This document shows, piece after piece, positions 39,129 through 49,746 of a DNA stretch of 64,000 bases (the first letter of the stretch is position 1; each line of letters starts with the position of its first letter). The notes under the pieces were generated by a model. It did no database searches, was not told where the DNA came from, and worked only from the letters and a program-made list of their open reading frames with translations. The stretch comes from Bacteroidota bacterium (GTDB lineage Bacteria > Bacteroidota > Bacteroidia > 2-12-FULL-35-15). The position numbers and the translations under genes are program-made. The stretch spans positions 1 to 64,000 of the forward strand of contig CANNHN010000007.1 of NCBI GenBank assembly GCA_947504725.1, read 5' to 3'.

Positions 39129-40691
39129 ATGGAAAGAAAAATTATCATAGGTAGCAGAGGAAGTGATTTAGCAATGTGGCAAGCTAATTATGTATTGCGC
39201 AAAGTTCAGAAACTTGGATTAACAGCTGAAATAAAAATTATCACAACACAAGGTGATGCCGTTCAGGATTTGAGTTTTGACAAACTGGAAGGGAAAGGTT
39301 TTTTTACAAAAGAAATTGAAGAAGCACTTTTAAATAAAGAAATCGACTTAGCTGTTCATTCGCATAAAGATTTGCCAACTACTTCGCCTGAAGGATTAAA
39401 AATTGCTGCTGTCTCCGAACGGGAAGATGCTGCCGAACTAATTTTGATTCGAAAAGAGTGTGTCGACAATGCACAGAAATATTCTTTTTCAAAAAATGCA
39501 ATTGTTGGAACTTCTTCGGCTAGAAGAAAATCACAATTGCTTGCATTTAGAAAAGATATTACCATTGAAGACCTAAGAGGAAATGTACCAACACGCATTC
39601 AAAAATTACGCGATAAAAATTACGATGCGATTATGTTAGCTGCAGCTGGTGTAGAACGTTTACGCATCGATTTAAGTGAATTTAAAGTTTTGCGATTAGA
39701 CCCAAAAGAATTTATTCCTGCTCCAGCTCAAGGTGTTTTGGGATTGCAAATCCGTGAAGATGATCATGAATTATTTGAATATATTCATAAATTAAACTCG
39801 GAAAAAGTAGAAGATACAATTGGTATTGAACGAAAAGTGTTGAATTTGTTTGATGGTGGTTGCTCTTTGCCATTAGGAGTGTTTTGCATCAAAGAAGAAA
39901 ACAAATTTAAAGTATGGACATCCAAAGCCGATACATGGAACGCAATGCCGAAGCGTTTATATTTTGAATCGTTTACAACGGATGGGTTTGCACAAAAAAT
40001 TGTGAATCGATTAAATGCAATCAAAGGATGTTCTGTTTTGATTACTCGCGATTTAAAAGAGGATTCTTTTTTCAAAAATGTATTAGAAGGAAACGGATAT
40101 AAAGTTGAAGGGATTTCTTTTATCGAAACAAAAAAGGTAAGTATACTTTCTGTTCCGCAAGCAGATTGGGTATTCTTTGCGAGTTCTAACGCTGTGGATT
40201 ATTTCTTTAATCAGAATCCGGAATTAAAATCAAAAACAAAATTCGGAGTAATTGGAAAATCTACCGAACAGGAATTAAAAAAGCATAACAGAAACGCTGC
40301 ATTTGTTGGTTCTGTTCCAGATACAAAAGTGGTAGGCAAGAAATTCGCAAAAACAGTTGGCGATGAAACAGTTTTGTTTCCACAAGCAAAAGGCGGATTA
40401 AGAACCATTCAACAACAGTTTGAAGATGCATCTAAACTTACCGACTTAGTAGTTTACGAAACAGTAAAAAAAGAAAATGCAAAATTACCAGATGCAGAAA
40501 TTCTAGTTTTCACAAGTCCGTCAAACGTAGAATCCTTTTTCGAGAAGACAAAAATTTCTTCGACACAAAAAGTAATTGCAATAGGAAAATCAACAGAAAA
40601 AAAATTAACAGAACACGGAGTGCAAAATTGTTTGCTACCAGCATCATTTGATGAAGTTGGTTTGGCAGAAGCTGTTTTTGGGATTCAATAG
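39129..40691 (+). CDS. hemCD: Hydroxymethylbilane synthase fused to uroporphyrinogen-III synthase
   Basis: 520 residues carrying two successive heme-pathway enzymes. HemC (1-300): IIGSRGSDLAMWQ, LAVHSHKDLPT, GTSSARRKSQLL, and the dipyrromethane cofactor cysteine C245 in FDGGCSLPLG. HemD (about 305-520): the two-lobe open fold with VLITRDLKEDSFF, VFFASSNAVDYFF, VVYETVKKE and ILVFTSPSNVESFF. The fusion would hand the unstable linear tetrapyrrole directly to the cyclising enzyme. Its stop codon's last base is the first base of the small repeat element at 40691-40826, which separates it from hemB. Confidence 0.94.
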   Translation: MERKIIIGSRGSDLAMWQANYVLRKVQKLGLTAEIKIITTQGDAVQDLSFDKLEGKGFFTKEIEEALLNKEIDLAVHSHKDLPTTSPEGLKIAAVSEREDAAELILIRKECVDNAQKYSFSKNAIVGTSSARRKSQLLAFRKDITIEDLRGNVPTRIQKLRDKNYDAIMLAAAGVERLRIDLSEFKVLRLDPKEFIPAPAQGVLGLQIREDDHELFEYIHKLNSEKVEDTIGIERKVLNLFDGGCSLPLGVFCIKEENKFKVWTSKADTWNAMPKRLYFESFTTDGFAQKIVNRLNAIKGCSVLITRDLKEDSFFKNVLEGNGYKVEGISFIETKKVSILSVPQADWVFFASSNAVDYFFNQNPELKSKTKFGVIGKSTEQELKKHNRNAAFVGSVPDTKVVGKKFAKTVGDETVLFPQAKGGLRTIQQQFEDASKLTDLVVYETVKKENAKLPDAEILVFTSPSNVESFFEKTKISSTQKVIAIGKSTEKKLTEHGVQNCLLPASFDEVGLAEAVFGIQ

Positions 40692-40826
40692 GAACGCAGA
40701 TCAATTAAGATTTTTATGATTAAAATGGATAAAATATTTAGTGCGTTAAGTAAATCATAAGTTATCATAAACCAACAAAGAAAAAAATCTTATTTTATCA
40801 TAACCATCATAAAAAATCAGCGTTCC
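40691..40826. mobile_element. MITE-like element with the GxxExxY-element ends
   Basis: 136 bp. The left end (40691-40720) matches the 30-bp end of the element at 46132-46664 at 28 of 30 positions. The right end (40806-40826) is its inverted form with nine bases missing and one change. AATA lies directly on both sides (40687-40690 and 40827-40830), a possible target duplication. It holds no gene and lies between hemC-hemD and hemB. Confidence 0.75.
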
Positions 40827-40841
40827 AATAATACTTAGCAT

Positions 40842-41813
40842 ATGCAAGCACAACGTCCAAGAAGATTAAGAAAAAATGCAATCGTTCGTGAAATGGTTGC
40901 TGAAACACGTCTTTCAAAAGATATGTTTATCTACCCTTATTTTGTGGTGGATGGAAAAAATGTAGTTCATGGTATAGATGCCATGCCAGGAATTAATCAT
41001 TATTCGGTAGACGAATTGGTGAAGGATGTAGAGAAAGGTTTGAAAATTGGCATCAACAAAATTTTATTGTTTGGAGTTGGTGAACAAAAAACAGAAGATG
41101 CTAGTTCATCGTTCAGTAACAACTCCATTGTTGTGAAAGCAGTAAAAGCATTGAAAGAAAAATTTGGAGAAAGTTTATATGTGATTACAGATGTTTGTGT
41201 ATGCGCATATACAACTCACGGACATTGTGGAATTTTACACGATGAATATGTGCATAACGATTCGTCCGTTGAAGTCTTGGCAAAAATGGCACTCGCGCAC
41301 GCACAAGCAGGAGCGGATATGGTTGCGCCAAGTGATATGATGGATGGTAGAATAGGAGCGATGCGCGAATTGTTAGATAACAACGGTTTTGAGAATACAG
41401 CTATCATGTCGTATTCTATAAAATATTCTTCAGCGTATTATGGTCCGTTCCGCGAAGCAGCAGATTCTGCTCCACAAAAAGGCGACAGAAAATCCTATCA
41501 GATGGATTTCCGAAATGGAAACGAATCGATGACAGAAGGATTATTGGATGAAGCAGAAGGAGCAGATGTTTTAATGGTGAAACCTGCCTTGGCTTATATG
41601 GATGTGATTTTTAATTTACGTCAGCATACACTTTTACCTATTGCCTGTTACAATGTTTCTGGTGAATACTCTATGGTAAAAGCTGCAGCGCAAAAGGGCT
41701 GGATTGATGAACAGAAAATTGTAATGGAAAACATGCACGCGTTTGCAAGAGCCGGAGCGAATATTATTATCACGTATCATACGAAGGATATTTTTGAAAA
41801 AAACTGGATTTAA
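40842..41813 (+). CDS. hemB: Porphobilinogen synthase (delta-aminolevulinic acid dehydratase)
   Basis: Joins two 5-aminolevulinate molecules to porphobilinogen. 323 residues. N-terminus RPRRLRKNAIVREMVAET, zinc-type cysteines in DVCVCAYTTHGHCG, and the Schiff-base lysine pair in SYSIKYSSAYYGPFREA and VLMVKPALAYMD are all present. The cysteine-rich loop indicates the zinc-dependent class. It lies 15 bp after the small element that follows hemC-hemD. Confidence 0.97.
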   Translation: MQAQRPRRLRKNAIVREMVAETRLSKDMFIYPYFVVDGKNVVHGIDAMPGINHYSVDELVKDVEKGLKIGINKILLFGVGEQKTEDASSSFSNNSIVVKAVKALKEKFGESLYVITDVCVCAYTTHGHCGILHDEYVHNDSSVEVLAKMALAHAQAGADMVAPSDMMDGRIGAMRELLDNNGFENTAIMSYSIKYSSAYYGPFREAADSAPQKGDRKSYQMDFRNGNESMTEGLLDEAEGADVLMVKPALAYMDVIFNLRQHTLLPIACYNVSGEYSMVKAAAQKGWIDEQKIVMENMHAFARAGANIIITYHTKDIFEKNWI

Positions 41814-44796: not shown

Positions 44797-44828
44797 CTGC
44801 ACATTAGCACATCAACACATTAGCACAC
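44797..44828. repeat. 16-bp tandem word tract downstream of the amidohydrolase
   Basis: CACATTAGCACATCAA (44800-44815) followed by CACATTAGCACAC. The unit length equals that of the 33061 tract, and CTGCACATTAG is shared with 14302-14312. Confidence 0.7.
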
Positions 44829-46114
44829 TATTTTATCCCGTACTTCGTTTTGTATTTTTCGTAAAGTGCTTTTTGATCGTCATTTAAGTCAATACTATTT
44901 CCTTTTACGAAAGCTCGCTCCACATTGTTACTTCGCATATCTAAGGCATCGCCAGTAGAGATGAAAATGGTTGCATCCTTACCTTGTTCAACGCTTCCTG
45001 TTGTTTTGTCAATGCCCAATATTTTTGCAGTATTCAGTGTAATTGATTTTAAAGCCTGTTCTTTTGTTAGTCCGTATGCAGCCGCTGTCCCTGCCATGAA
45101 TGGTAAATTTCTTGCGCCCATAGCTTCCATATCTCCTTCATTATTCAAGCAAAATAGGATTCCTGCTTTGTGTAGTATATATGGAAGTTTATAAGGTAAG
45201 TCAATGTCATCTTCTGGATATGTTGGTAGGTCATGCACTCTCGCAATAACAACTGATATATTGTTTTGTTTTAATAGATCTGTTATCATCCAACTTTCTT
45301 TCCCACCAACAATCGCAACCTTTGATATTTTATTTAGAATGGTGAAATTAATTGCTTCCACCATTTCTTTTACAGTATTGCTGTGAATGAATAAGGTTTG
45401 TGTTCCATTAAATAAACCTTTCATTGCTTCGAAACGAAGATTCGCTTCTTCTTTTTGTGTTGTTTCGTTATATGCTTTTGCATCAGCAAACAATTTTTTT
45501 AATAATTCAGTTTGTTTAATATAATCTTTGTTCTTTTCAAATGGTCCAGGAAAAATATTGTCTTCATCCATAAATTTTCTACTTTGAATGGTTGGCCAAT
45601 TGATATGAATGCCATCATCGGTTTTGTATGCCGCATCTTCCCAATTCCAACCATCTAAAACAACAACGCTTGATGTTCCAGAAACTAACCCTCCACGAGG
45701 AGTAATTTGAGCTAATAAAACTCCATTACTTCTTACTGTAGGAATTATTTTTGAATCTGTGTTGTAAGCAATAAGTGAACGAACGTTTGGCAATGTTGTT
45801 CCCGTTTCTCTAAAATCGTTTGTTGCACGAACTGATTCAATTTCTGTCAATCCCAATGTTGAATTCGGAGCGATGATTCCTGGATAAACATGTTTTCCTG
45901 TGGCATCAATCACTTCATCGTATCCTGCTTTGTCCATTTTAGCCGTGGTAGCATCTGCAACTAAAACAATTTTCCCTCCTTTTAATCCGATGATAGAATT
46001 TTGTATCACACTATCGTTTCCGATATGAGCTGTGGCGTTCATGATTAATACACTTTTCTGTGCGAACGTGATAGTGGTGATGAGTAGTAATGCGAATAGG
46101 ATTGGTTTTCTCAT
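44828..46114 (-). CDS. Amidohydrolase-family protein lacking the HxH metal motif, secreted
   Basis: 428 residues, signal peptide MRKPILFALLLITTITFAQ. The N- and C-terminal parts match the urease-type composite barrel (GGKIVLVADATTAKMD; HVYPGIIAPNSTLGL; AMGARNLPFMAGTAAAYG; ITLNTAKILGIDKTTGSVEQGKDATIFI). In active members the strand after YPG reads DxHxH; here it reads APNSTLG, so a binuclear metal site is unlikely. It may be a pseudoenzyme that associates with the intact neighbour encoded upstream. Together with that gene it probably forms an operon, now split by the GxxExxY element. Confidence 0.85.
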   Translation of the reverse strand: MRKPILFALLLITTITFAQKSVLIMNATAHIGNDSVIQNSIIGLKGGKIVLVADATTAKMDKAGYDEVIDATGKHVYPGIIAPNSTLGLTEIESVRATNDFRETGTTLPNVRSLIAYNTDSKIIPTVRSNGVLLAQITPRGGLVSGTSSVVVLDGWNWEDAAYKTDDGIHINWPTIQSRKFMDEDNIFPGPFEKNKDYIKQTELLKKLFADAKAYNETTQKEEANLRFEAMKGLFNGTQTLFIHSNTVKEMVEAINFTILNKISKVAIVGGKESWMITDLLKQNNISVVIARVHDLPTYPEDDIDLPYKLPYILHKAGILFCLNNEGDMEAMGARNLPFMAGTAAAYGLTKEQALKSITLNTAKILGIDKTTGSVEQGKDATIFISTGDALDMRSNNVERAFVKGNSIDLNDDQKALYEKYKTKYGIK

Positions 46115-46131: not shown

Positions 46132-46664
46132 GGAACGCAGATCTTTTAAGATTTTTATGATAAAAAAAGATAGCTGTGTGTCTTATGATATTTTTATGTT
46201 TTCTAGTGTTATGTTTCTTTTAAAATCGTTTGATAATACTTTTCTTTTGTATTCTACTTCCTTTCCAAAGTTTAATAATAACCCAACTTCGATTTCGGTT
46301 GCTTTTAGATAATTTACTAATTGGATTTCATGTTCTTCCATTAAGTATTCGCATGCTTTCAATTCAATAATAACTTTGTTTTCTACAATTAGGTCTGCAA
46401 AGTAATTACCAATACATATTTTATCATAATACACAGTAATTGGTTTTTGCTTTTCACACTCTAATCCTTGTTTACCCAACTCAATGATCATTGCATTTTC
46501 ATATACTTTTTCTAAGAATCCGTAGCCTAAATTATTGTAAACATTGTAGTACGCTTTTATTATTTTCTTGGTTCTATCCGAATGTTTGAAATTGTCTCCA
46601 ATCATAAATAAATTTTAATTTTTTATCTTAACAAATCATAAAAATCTTAAAAGATCTGCGTTCC
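46132..46664. mobile_element. GxxExxY element with 30-bp terminal inverted repeats
   Basis: Ends 46132-46161 and 46635-46664 are perfect 30-bp inverted repeats that begin GGAACGCAGAT. They flank only the GxxExxY-protein gene. No transposase is present. It lies in the gap between two amidohydrolase genes; without it the gap would be 36 bp. No clear target duplication. Confidence 0.75.
46183..46605 (-). CDS. GxxExxY family protein (PD-(D/E)XK nuclease-like)
   Basis: 140 residues. The defining motif GFLEKVY (G29, E32, Y35) is in the first third. A nuclease-like site follows: D71 in YFADLIVENK, then E81-L-K83 in IIELK, with a hydrophobic strand on each side, and Q95. The family is known as PDDEXK_3 but its reaction is not established. 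The gene lies between perfect 30-bp inverted repeats (46132-46161 and 46635-46664), which indicates that it travels, or once travelled, as part of a small element. The start MIGDNFKHSDRTKK matches the family's N-terminus. Confidence 0.88.
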   Translation of the reverse strand: MIGDNFKHSDRTKKIIKAYYNVYNNLGYGFLEKVYENAMIIELGKQGLECEKQKPITVYYDKICIGNYFADLIVENKVIIELKACEYLMEEHEIQLVNYLKATEIEVGLLLNFGKEVEYKRKVLSNDFKRNITLENIKIS

Positions 46665-46683: not shown

Positions 46684-49600
46684 TTACTCAGCTATTTCTA
46701 GATAATCCTCTTGCATTGTATCACACTCAAACAGCTGCCTTCTCTTCATTACTGGTCGTTGAGTTGGCGCTCCACCTTTTTTCTCATCTAACATTTTCTG
46801 AATAATGCGTGCGCGTTCTTTCTGGATGTCTACTCTCAATTTTGCATCTTCTTCATTATCGAAATACACTTGTCCATCAATAATTGTCTTTTCAACTTTT
46901 GCATAAATGGATAATGGATTGTCCGACCATAAAACTACATCAGCATCTTTTCCAACTTTAATACTACCAACTCTATTGTCGATGTGTAATAATTTTGCTG
47001 GATTTAGGGTTACCAATTTTAATGCTTCTTCTTCTGTAAGTCCGCCATATTTGATGGATTTAGCAGCTTCTTGATTTAATCTTCTTCCCATTTCAGCATC
47101 ATCTGAATTTATTGCAGTAGTAACGCCCATTTTTGTTAAAACTGCTGCATTATATGGAATAGCATCTTTTACTTCCATTTTATATGCCCACCAGTCACTA
47201 AAAGAGGATGCGCCAGCTCCGTGAGCTTTCATTTTGTCTGCTACTTTATATCCTTCCAAAATGTGCGTAAATGTATTTACTTTAAAGCCCATAGAGTCGC
47301 CCACATGCATTAACATGTTTATTTCGGATTGTACATAAGAGTGACAAGTGATGAATCGTTTTTTGTTTAAAATTTCTGCAACTGCTTCTAATTCTAAATC
47401 TCTTCTTATCGGAGCTATATTTGCTTTTGCTTTTTCTGACAATCCACCAAAAGCTTTTTGTTTCGCATCGTATTCTTTAGCACGTGTAAATGCATCGTAA
47501 TATACTTGTTCTACACCCATACGAGATTGTGGGAAACGAACAGTGTTTATATCTCCCCAATTACTTTGTTTTACATTTTCACCTAAAGCAAATTTGATGA
47601 AGCCATCCGCTTTTTCAAATTTCATTTCTTCTGGTGATTTGCCCCAACGTAATTTAATGATTGCAGATTGACCTCCTATTGGATTTGCTGAACCATGAAG
47701 TAACTGAGATGTTGTTACTCCTCCGGAAAGCTGACGATAAATATTTATGTCTTCAGAGTTTATCACATCACCCATTCTTACTTCAGCACTAGAAGCTTGT
47801 GTGCCTTCGTTTACACTACTTAATGCAATGTGTGAGTGTTCATCAATAATACCAGCTGTTAAATGTTTGCCAGTTCCATCAATTACTTTTGCGAATGCTA
47901 ATTTAGGAGCGCTAATATCATCTGCTATGCGAACAATTCGTCCTTCAGTAATATATACATCTTGATTTTTCAAAATACCTTCTGCTTCATTCGTCCAAAC
48001 AGTAACATGCTTAATCAAAACTGCATCGTAACGTGTTTTTATATCTGCAACAATTTTTTCAAATTCAGTTCGGTCGTCACCTTTGCCAAAAGCAGTAAAT
48101 GGATATATAACTTGCCCGTATTTTGCAGTTGTTTTTTTAATTGTGTCTTTTTTCGCAGTTGAAACAAATGCATCTTTATATGATGCGTTCCAGTCTATCC
48201 AAGTTCCATCAGATGTTTGTCCTTTGCCATTAAATTTCATTGGTTGGGAATTAATATTCCCGCTAAGCCTAATGGATCCAGTTGTGTCTTTCGTTGAAAA
48301 GCTTATAGAGATAGAGTATCCAGACACAATAATGTTCACTGGTGTTTTTACAGTGTCAGTAATCATGGTTGCTTTTAGTTTCTCCAAATCACCTTCTATT
48401 TTTAATTGGTGGTTTATGCTTGTCCCGTATGAAAAATCGTAATTCCCTCTTACATCAATGGTGTTGTAGTCCGTTATTTTAAAATTATTTCCTTGTATCC
48501 AATTTTCGTAGATGATTGTTTTTTCATCAAATAAATTTCCTGAAGTGATAATAAAGTTTGCAATCATTCCACTTTTTAATTTTCCTAATTTATCTCCAAT
48601 ATTCAACATTTCAGCTGGAGTGGATGTAAGTGATCTTAATGCTTGTTTTTCAGATAATCCATAAGAAATAGCTTTACGCAAATTTTTCCAAAAATCTTTT
48701 TTGTCTTTTAAATCAGAGGTGGTTATTGCAAATGAAATAAAATATTTTTCAAATGCAGAAAGATTTGCTGGAGCAATTTCCCAATGTTTTAATTCAGCCA
48801 ACGATACATAATTTGCATCGTAAGCATCTTCAACATCATATGCTAATGGGAAATTAATTGGGAGAATGAACTTGCAATTACTTGCTTTTATTTCATCTAA
48901 ACGTTGATATTCATTTCCACTACCTTTGATTATGTAATTGGTTTTAAACTCGTCCCCAATTTTATCTGCACGTAAAACATTTAGTTTATCGTTTGTTTCA
49001 AAAATTTGAGGAAGTGCTTGTAGAGCATTGAATGCTTCTAAAGAAATATTGATTTCTTTTTTAGTCTTGTCAGATTTGTACCAACTTGCATCCAAATACG
49101 TTTGACGCAACAAGGCCATACAACCCATTAAAGATGAAGGATAATCTTGAGAAGATGTTCCTTTGTCGAAAGAATATAAAGCAGCAGCTTTATCAGTTAC
49201 AATTAATTCATTTTCGCGAAGTTCTCCTAATGTTACAATCGTTCCAGAGCCTCTTACAATACCATCTTTTTGAAAAGTTAGTACAGCTCCAAATCCTAAT
49301 TTTCTCAATTCTTCTGCTGATTTGCTATCTTTTGTAAATATTTTTAAAGCATCTGTTTCTGGTTTAATTGCTTGATTCCATCCATAAGCTCCTTTTGTAT
49401 TGCTTTCAGTTTGTGGATATCCTCCACCTTGAGATTTTTTTGTTTCTGGCATTCCGTAAGAAGAGTATGCATCAATCAATCCAGGATATATAGTTTTTCC
49501 TTTTAAGTCAACAATAACGGAGCCTTGTGGAATATTGATTTTTGTTCCTACTAAAGAAATAACACCGTCTTTAATGACCATCGTTCCATTCTCAATTACT

Positions 49601-49746
49601 TCATCAGCATCTACTACTATTTTAGCATTTATAAATGCATAAATGGTGTGATTTTTATTTGCTGTCCCGTTTACAGGAAAGGTCTCTTGGGCTTTTGCAA
49701 CGATAGATGCTGAAATTGCAAAAAGTACTAAAATGAGTTTCTTCAT
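46684..49746 (-). CDS. Large secreted amidohydrolase with two tandem domains
   Basis: 1020 residues. Signal peptide MKKLILVLFAISASIVAKAQ. The first amidohydrolase half (about 25-440) has YPGLIDAYSSYG in place of DxHxH and looks inactive. A beta-rich linker follows. The second half (about 590-1000) has the intact GIIDEHSHIAL (H about 637 and 639) and later metal and catalytic parts (TSQLLHGSANPIGGQS; FITCHSYVQSEINMLMH; TAINSDDAEMGRRLNQEA; VGSIKVGKDADVVLW). Active members are imidazolonepropionase-like enzymes or peptidases of the urease superfamily; the substrate is unknown. Co-directional with the shorter, HxH-less gene downstream. Confidence 0.9.
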   Translation of the reverse strand: MKKLILVLFAISASIVAKAQETFPVNGTANKNHTIYAFINAKIVVDADEVIENGTMVIKDGVISLVGTKINIPQGSVIVDLKGKTIYPGLIDAYSSYGMPETKKSQGGGYPQTESNTKGAYGWNQAIKPETDALKIFTKDSKSAEELRKLGFGAVLTFQKDGIVRGSGTIVTLGELRENELIVTDKAAALYSFDKGTSSQDYPSSLMGCMALLRQTYLDASWYKSDKTKKEINISLEAFNALQALPQIFETNDKLNVLRADKIGDEFKTNYIIKGSGNEYQRLDEIKASNCKFILPINFPLAYDVEDAYDANYVSLAELKHWEIAPANLSAFEKYFISFAITTSDLKDKKDFWKNLRKAISYGLSEKQALRSLTSTPAEMLNIGDKLGKLKSGMIANFIITSGNLFDEKTIIYENWIQGNNFKITDYNTIDVRGNYDFSYGTSINHQLKIEGDLEKLKATMITDTVKTPVNIIVSGYSISISFSTKDTTGSIRLSGNINSQPMKFNGKGQTSDGTWIDWNASYKDAFVSTAKKDTIKKTTAKYGQVIYPFTAFGKGDDRTEFEKIVADIKTRYDAVLIKHVTVWTNEAEGILKNQDVYITEGRIVRIADDISAPKLAFAKVIDGTGKHLTAGIIDEHSHIALSSVNEGTQASSAEVRMGDVINSEDINIYRQLSGGVTTSQLLHGSANPIGGQSAIIKLRWGKSPEEMKFEKADGFIKFALGENVKQSNWGDINTVRFPQSRMGVEQVYYDAFTRAKEYDAKQKAFGGLSEKAKANIAPIRRDLELEAVAEILNKKRFITCHSYVQSEINMLMHVGDSMGFKVNTFTHILEGYKVADKMKAHGAGASSFSDWWAYKMEVKDAIPYNAAVLTKMGVTTAINSDDAEMGRRLNQEAAKSIKYGGLTEEEALKLVTLNPAKLLHIDNRVGSIKVGKDADVVLWSDNPLSIYAKVEKTIIDGQVYFDNEEDAKLRVDIQKERARIIQKMLDEKKGGAPTQRPVMKRRQLFECDTMQEDYLEIAE

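Follow-up and report, generated by a model that had tools for sequence, protein, structure and literature searches.

We asked what kind of unit separates two amidohydrolase genes in the genome of a bacterium of the Bacteroidota, where a single small gene of the GxxExxY family lies between two inverted copies of one sequence. The window, the whole stretch of 64,000 nucleotides that was analysed, belongs to contig 7 of a 43-contig, 3.4-Mb genome. Both arms of the unit read GGAACGCAGATCTTTTAAGATTTTTATGAT (30 of 30 positions identical, one arm taken as the reverse complement), and they remain similar beyond this stretch, with 86% identity over 44 nt (Table 1). The GxxExxY gene is the sole open reading frame of at least 80 aa within the 533 bp and its product matches PDDEXK_3 in Pfam; the ORF listing and the profile search revealed no transposase domain in the unit. 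Both flanking frames lie on the minus strand and match Amidohydro_1, and with the element removed 17 + 19 = 36 bp would remain between them. A sequence-only reading had described this arrangement, namely perfect 30-bp repeats, the GxxExxY gene alone between them, two amidohydrolases on one strand, a 36-bp gap without the element and no transposase gene, and our analysis bears it out in all these points. We argue here, with a probability of roughly 60%, that the unit belongs to a dispersed repeat system, of which it is the form that carries a gene, and that the GxxExxY nuclease recognises its own iteron ends, which it maintains or spreads.

Table 1. The element, its parts and neighbours, and a gene-less relative (positions in the window)
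Feature	Position	Strand	Remarks
Whole element	46132..46664	.	533 bp; recurring outer terminus ATRGGAACGC...GCGTTCCYAT
Arm, 3' side of GxxExxY gene	46132..46161	+	GGAACGCAGATCTTTTAAGATTTTTATGAT; GAT words ~9-10 bp apart
Arm, 5' side of GxxExxY gene	46635..46664	-	perfect inverted copy of 46132-46161
GxxExxY gene	46183..46605	-	140 aa, PD-(D/E)XK fold (predicted); G29xxE32xxY35; D71, E81xK83, Q95xxxY99
Flanking amidohydrolase, downstream in operon	44828..46114	-	428 aa; context only
Flanking amidohydrolase, upstream in operon	46684..49746	-	1020 aa; context only
Gene-less relative of the element	40691..40826	.	two inverted ends, no gene

The protein itself has the features of a nuclease. It matched TIGR04256 with 138.7 bits (cut-off 35) and PF13366 (PDDEXK_3) with 142.4 bits (cut-off 22). 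D71, E81, Q95 and Y99 were invariant and K83 was present in at least 90% of the sequences of 40 relatives, so that the nuclease-like D71/E81-x-K83 site, already noticed in the sequence-only reading, is indeed kept, and with this conserved site cleavage by GxxExxY is plausible. The residue pattern D...ExK...QxxxY is that of RecB/Cas4-type nucleases. An AlphaFold2 model (mean pLDDT 83.8) has a PD-(D/E)XK fold, and its top match in a structure comparison was SSO0001 (Z 8.6), which we take to be a Cas4 protein, followed by BamHI, BglII and the Holliday-junction resolvase Hjc (Z 6.8-7.1). Because Z scores of 7-8 are common among unrelated matches, the model backs the fold and not membership in one particular family. 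The Cas4 profiles in PADLOC gave weak matches only (E 6e-4 to 2e-3), and a sequence search found no solved structure of any relative. GxxExxY is best explained as a predicted small Cas4/RecB-like PD-(D/E)XK nuclease. The gene was present in 59 of the 118 sampled Bacteroidota genomes, in 1-12 copies, and also in Chloroflexota, Planctomycetota, Pseudomonadota and others. In two genomes (L232, G061:C9:88000-94500; L233, G089:C1:69000-75500) a carB-like gene is the neighbour of an 883-aa fusion with GxxExxY at the N-terminus of a RecQ-like helicase, and inspection of both loci revealed no flanking inverted repeat, as expected of a domesticated copy. In a third genome (G073:C22) an 883-aa frame also lies at a GxxExxY match.

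Has the element entered this gap recently? The sequence-only reading, which took the unit for a small cassette inserted into an existing operon, had proposed a comparison with relatives that lack it. We collected 30 loci among 36 genomes of this genus; in two of the loci the upstream sequence is missing, which leaves 28 informative gaps. Seventeen held GxxExxY (called by tblastn, with several copies broken by stops or frameshifts), three held remains of the ends only, and eight had no element or no clear one, including genomes in which the two amidohydrolase genes are adjacent. Since the element or its remains occupied the same gap in 20 of the 28 genomes, the insertion is not recent, and a recent insertion in the strain of the window is ruled out. 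The cassette proposal therefore stands as far as a mobile or formerly mobile unit is concerned and falls as far as a fresh one is. In one relative (L050, G001:C48) ~4 tandem copies of the element's right end, with ~100 bp per unit, lie in the gap before the amidohydrolase start.

The two arms at this locus have, as judged from their pairwise matches, evolved in concert. Among 17 related genomes an arm matched the other arm of its own species better than the arms of other species (mean 28.6 versus 17.6; permutation mean 18.2 +/- 1.2, 0 of 5000). In L029, for instance, TCATGATCTTCATGAT is found in either arm, and in L035, L040, L041 and L050 GGTACGC takes the place of GGAACGC on both sides. The elements of L028 and L029 are only ~66-72% identical between flanks that are mostly 85-94% identical, and their left junction is displaced by ~22 bp, which reads as if different elements had entered the gap or had replaced one another. 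In another pair (L030/L032) a block of 92-98% identity (with one step of 84%) runs from the upstream amidohydrolase through the element, compared to ~80-85% downstream. Homing of the gene into the same site was considered for this pair and rejected: since the highly identical stretch is not confined to the element but includes part of the upstream gene, it represents ordinary recombination between species.

Ends of the same kind are also dispersed through the genome. A relaxed end pattern had 18 matches in the genome of the window and 16 and 11 in two relatives, while the pattern read backwards had none in the genome of the window and 0-1 over the three genomes; the search for further copies suggested in the sequence-only reading was thus positive. 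Most matches form inverted pairs ~110-230 bp apart with no gene inside, and their outer terminus is regularly ATRGGAACGC...GCGTTCCYAT. One such pair within the window lies between a hemC/hemD-like ORF (39129-40691) and a hemB-like ORF (40842-41813; both names by sequence reading), and the TAG stop of the former overlaps the first base of the GGAACGC end at 40691. Six end sites, paired or single, were orthologous in relatives and are therefore old. The window element, too, is old: it belongs to a very large family and has in part been inherited vertically. Far from this genus, in an Anaerolineae genome, the 20 pairs sampled were discrete gene-less palindromes of 59-75 bp that consist of three iterons, an A/T-rich loop and three inverted iterons. 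In all the elements examined, the gene inside was GxxExxY or there was none.

We then considered how general the pairing of gene and inverted ends is. In the window's genome every one of the five GxxExxY genes lies between inverted repeats, and each pair of repeats has a sequence of its own. In samples of 80 loci across phyla and ~70 further Bacteroidota genes (~150 in total), we determined the best inverted repeat across the gene within 250-bp flanks and compared it to the 99% point of shifted windows (1% expected). This threshold was exceeded by 60% of the genes from many phyla (n=75) and 61% of those from Bacteroidota (n=75), compared to 4% with permuted flanks; ~40% of the sampled genes had no significant inverted repeat by this 250-bp-flank test. 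As the Bacteroidota locus set contains a handful of duplicates, later tests used 90 distinct proteins. Apart from a dinucleotide-like signal at lag 2, the autocorrelation of the flanks peaked at lag 10 (z 11), with further signals at 9, 11, 20 and 23. By this periodicity the arms are arrays of short words (iterons) about one helical turn (~10 bp) apart, for example TTTAACCACAAAG-N2-CACAAAG..., TTACACGGAG..., GTCTGAACTGTGATT... and GGAACGCAGAT..., and the classes of ends differ in sequence (CRCRRAG, GTCTGAA..RATT, GGAACGCRGAT and others). At two loci (L234, G127:C4:67500-70800; L235, G065:C1:1592300-1595300) two GxxExxY genes are neighbours, with iteron words around each.

Arms that match this well could also pair in a transcript and form a stem around the gene that serves its processing or stability, and both the perfect 30-bp arms of the window and the concerted evolution of arms, which pairing would produce too, are compatible with this. 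We nevertheless consider such an RNA element highly improbable, because mismatches between arms that a G-U pair would tolerate were not enriched (84 versus 114 non-pairing transitions), and on this wobble test we rejected it. In CRCRRAG-type arms, moreover, the mismatches avoid the iteron words (9.5%, with a word mask that is itself motif-based) and fall in the spacers (23%), and Rfam contained no family that matched at gathering scores.

If GxxExxY acts on the ends, the type of end should follow the type of protein. Across 90 elements, protein distance and the 5-mer similarity of the arms were correlated (rho -0.40, 0 of 2000 permutations). Both quantities are related to kinship, which could by itself produce this correlation; therefore we performed a test within genomes, the only one that removes kinship. 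In triplets of two paralogues from one genome and a third element from elsewhere, we asked whether the same paralogue is closer to the third element in its protein and in its arms. This was so in 71.2% of 2028 triplets, compared to 49.8 +/- 4.3% when arms were shuffled within genomes (0 of 500), a result that host kinship cannot explain and that indicates that the end type follows the protein and not the host.

The presence of ends also depended on the gene. Ends of A type numbered 373 in the 59 Bacteroidota genomes with GxxExxY and 19 in the 59 without, and the backwards control gave 12 in all 118; one family makes up 24 of the 59 gene-negative genomes, and the mixed families f2, f13, f15 and f22 show the same A-type contrast. 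Ends of C type (GTCTGAA...) numbered 103 with the gene and 3 without in the 118 genomes (control 4), and they directly bracket GxxExxY genes in G094, G114, G069, G048 and G134. Eighteen genomes reached through loci outside the Bacteroidota had 2-289 ends each (control 0-3), all of them carriers of GxxExxY, so that this set has no gene-negative counterpart. Seven of the 19 A-type ends lie in G142 (120 contigs), on C70 and C120, several of them close together, and a search of this genome found no GxxExxY; perhaps the assembly lacks the gene, or the genome has lost it.

The sequence-only reading had left open whether the protein acts on the ends itself or is the passenger of another transposase. 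The tracking of ends and proteins within genomes and the occurrence of ends almost only together with the gene favour the first possibility. In the second, a transposase encoded elsewhere would move the ends in trans and GxxExxY would be cargo or a helper, e.g. a nuclease that protects or resolves ends. The lack of a transposase domain in the unit itself fits this, as do a few elements with target duplications. At two unrelated loci in different genomes we found 697-bp units (L108:3754-4450 and L123:3754-4451) with GCTACTCTTT... termini (GCTACTC) and perfect 8-bp target duplications (CCCGGGGA, TGCCCCCG); in each, a GxxExxY gene is accompanied by iterons arrayed head to head, and there is no transposase inside; possibly this unit is a different transposon that took up GxxExxY. 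Furthermore, in L161 (G047:C2:889144) an exact 8-bp direct repeat, AAAATGCA, stands at both outer ends; it is the only ordinary element of 91 with such a repeat and is possibly a young insertion. Against a passenger role, the end type tracks the GxxExxY type inside single genomes, genomes without the gene are almost free of ends, and no gene other than GxxExxY was ever found inside the examined elements. We therefore regard a passenger role as unlikely and prefer a nuclease that acts on its own ends.

Direct traces of movement were rare in the family. A target duplication of at least 4 bp was present in 25% of the elements, compared to 23.6% under the permuted null, so that across the elements tested there was no general target-site duplication; the absence of a clear duplication, remarked on earlier for the window element, holds for the family at large. 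Exact 8-bp duplications occurred in 2 of 91 elements (L123 and L161; 0.03 expected), plus L108. Multi-site searches for empty sites in two genera did not turn up any young insertion that is clean and has its empty site intact; the sites were mostly orthologous, diverged or relic, and the GxxExxY gene is often broken. Among 72,556 plasmid records 8 contained GxxExxY, at least one of which looks chromosomal. No match was found in phages, and viral contigs gave one match in a pre-filtered search of low sensitivity. A prophage, plasmid or defence origin was rejected on the missing phage match, the 8 plasmid records and the weak Cas4 matches in PADLOC.

Such long-lived sites, orthologous between species, together with the rarity of GxxExxY on plasmids and phages and a RecQ fusion that hints at DNA processing, would also suit a protein that does not mobilise anything: a DNA-binding nuclease, possibly with a nucleoid, repair or regulatory role, whose binding sites are iteron palindromes that selection preserves and ordinary duplication multiplies. 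However, the inverted units are paired, have a defined size and end sharply at their outer termini, so that they look like inserting units, and gene-bearing and gene-less forms have the same ends. In addition, one and the same gap is found both empty and occupied, with different elements in sister species, and since the copies seen lie both upstream of genes and at their 3' ends, they do not suggest operators. We consider this alternative quite unlikely.

We propose instead that GxxExxY maintains or spreads its own ends as follows. The protein would recognise iterons that are in phase with the helix, both in the two inverted ends of its own unit and in the gene-less copies elsewhere, and would cut or nick there. 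Such cutting or nicking would keep the ends matched and would occasionally lead to their being copied or inserted into intergenic DNA, a step for which host replication or recombination would probably be required too. Recognition of the ends is strongly suggested by co-evolution; the cleavage and the copying step we infer. The proposal is built on what can be read directly from the genomes, i.e. the architecture, its breadth over phyla, the co-variation of ends and proteins, ends almost only with the gene, concerted arms and gene-less copies. On a wider reading, to which we would give slightly less than even odds, there is a class of repeat elements of its own, selfish or domesticated, that has GxxExxY proteins as its enzymes. 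In this class a Cas4/RecB-like PD-(D/E)XK nuclease would read helically phased double-strand iterons and drive their copying, without a recombinase of the DDE, HuH, tyrosine or serine kind. If true, this would explain the palindromic repeats of the CACAGAG, CGCAAAG and GTCTGAA types in many phyla.

The same pairing of gene and repeat across many phyla suggests that GxxExxY acts on a kind of short repeat that ranks among the commonest in bacterial genomes, and that it probably spreads this repeat as well. In the open literature (subscription journals lay outside the scope) GxxExxY is mentioned, never in connection with repeats, and the search brought up no function for it and no description of the pairing. 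TIGR04256 was not mentioned there, and PF13366 was mentioned once, in a paper on an unrelated subject by its title and abstract. The same literature offered no known cause for the palindromic repeats. Linking the two gives GxxExxY a likely substrate and the palindromic repeats a likely maker, and many natural pairs of enzyme and end are on hand for tests of specificity. If GxxExxY moves DNA, a nuclease fold not known as a stand-alone transposase would be doing so.

Finally, we compared the unit to known systems. With insertion sequences and MITEs it shares terminal inverted repeats and the coexistence of gene-bearing with shorter gene-less forms, but it has no DDE, HuH, tyrosine or serine transposase domain and no general target duplication, is very rare on plasmids and was not found in phages. 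The Cas4/RecB-like nucleases resemble GxxExxY in the predicted fold (SSO0001, Z 8.6), the D...ExK...QxxxY pattern and a weak profile similarity (Cas4, E 6e-4), whereas the GxxExxY gene is framed by repeats of its own, and no cas genes came to notice when the loci were read. Like a homing endonuclease gene, it is a small nuclease gene that re-occupies one intergenic site across species; however, the unit carries inverted ends of its own, such ends and gene-less units occur at many further places, and the excess similarity of L030/L032 reaches the flanking gene, i.e. it is plain recombination. The closest likeness is to the REPtron, in which RAYT/TnpA-REP lies between inverted REPs and REPINs or BIMEs are dispersed. 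TnpA-REP and REPs co-evolve (PMC8266576) and REPINs persist for long (PMC8049555). In both systems one nuclease gene sits between inverted repeats, many short gene-less inverted pairs are dispersed in the same genome, the sites are chromosomal and long-lived, and repeats and enzyme co-vary; the scarcity of GxxExxY on plasmids and phages also resembles REPINs and differs from typical insertion sequences. The enzymes differ, PD-(D/E)XK (TIGR04256) in one case and HuH/Y1 in the other, as do the ends, which are arrays of words spaced by ~10 bp in the GxxExxY unit and single hairpins with a GTAG/CGTC tag in REPs. Since the HuH (Y1) TnpA-REP domain, the defining feature, was searched for and is absent from the GxxExxY protein (PDDEXK_3 being the only match in Pfam), the unit is not a REPtron. 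By analogy, the best explanation is that it works like one, with an unrelated enzyme and double-strand iterons.
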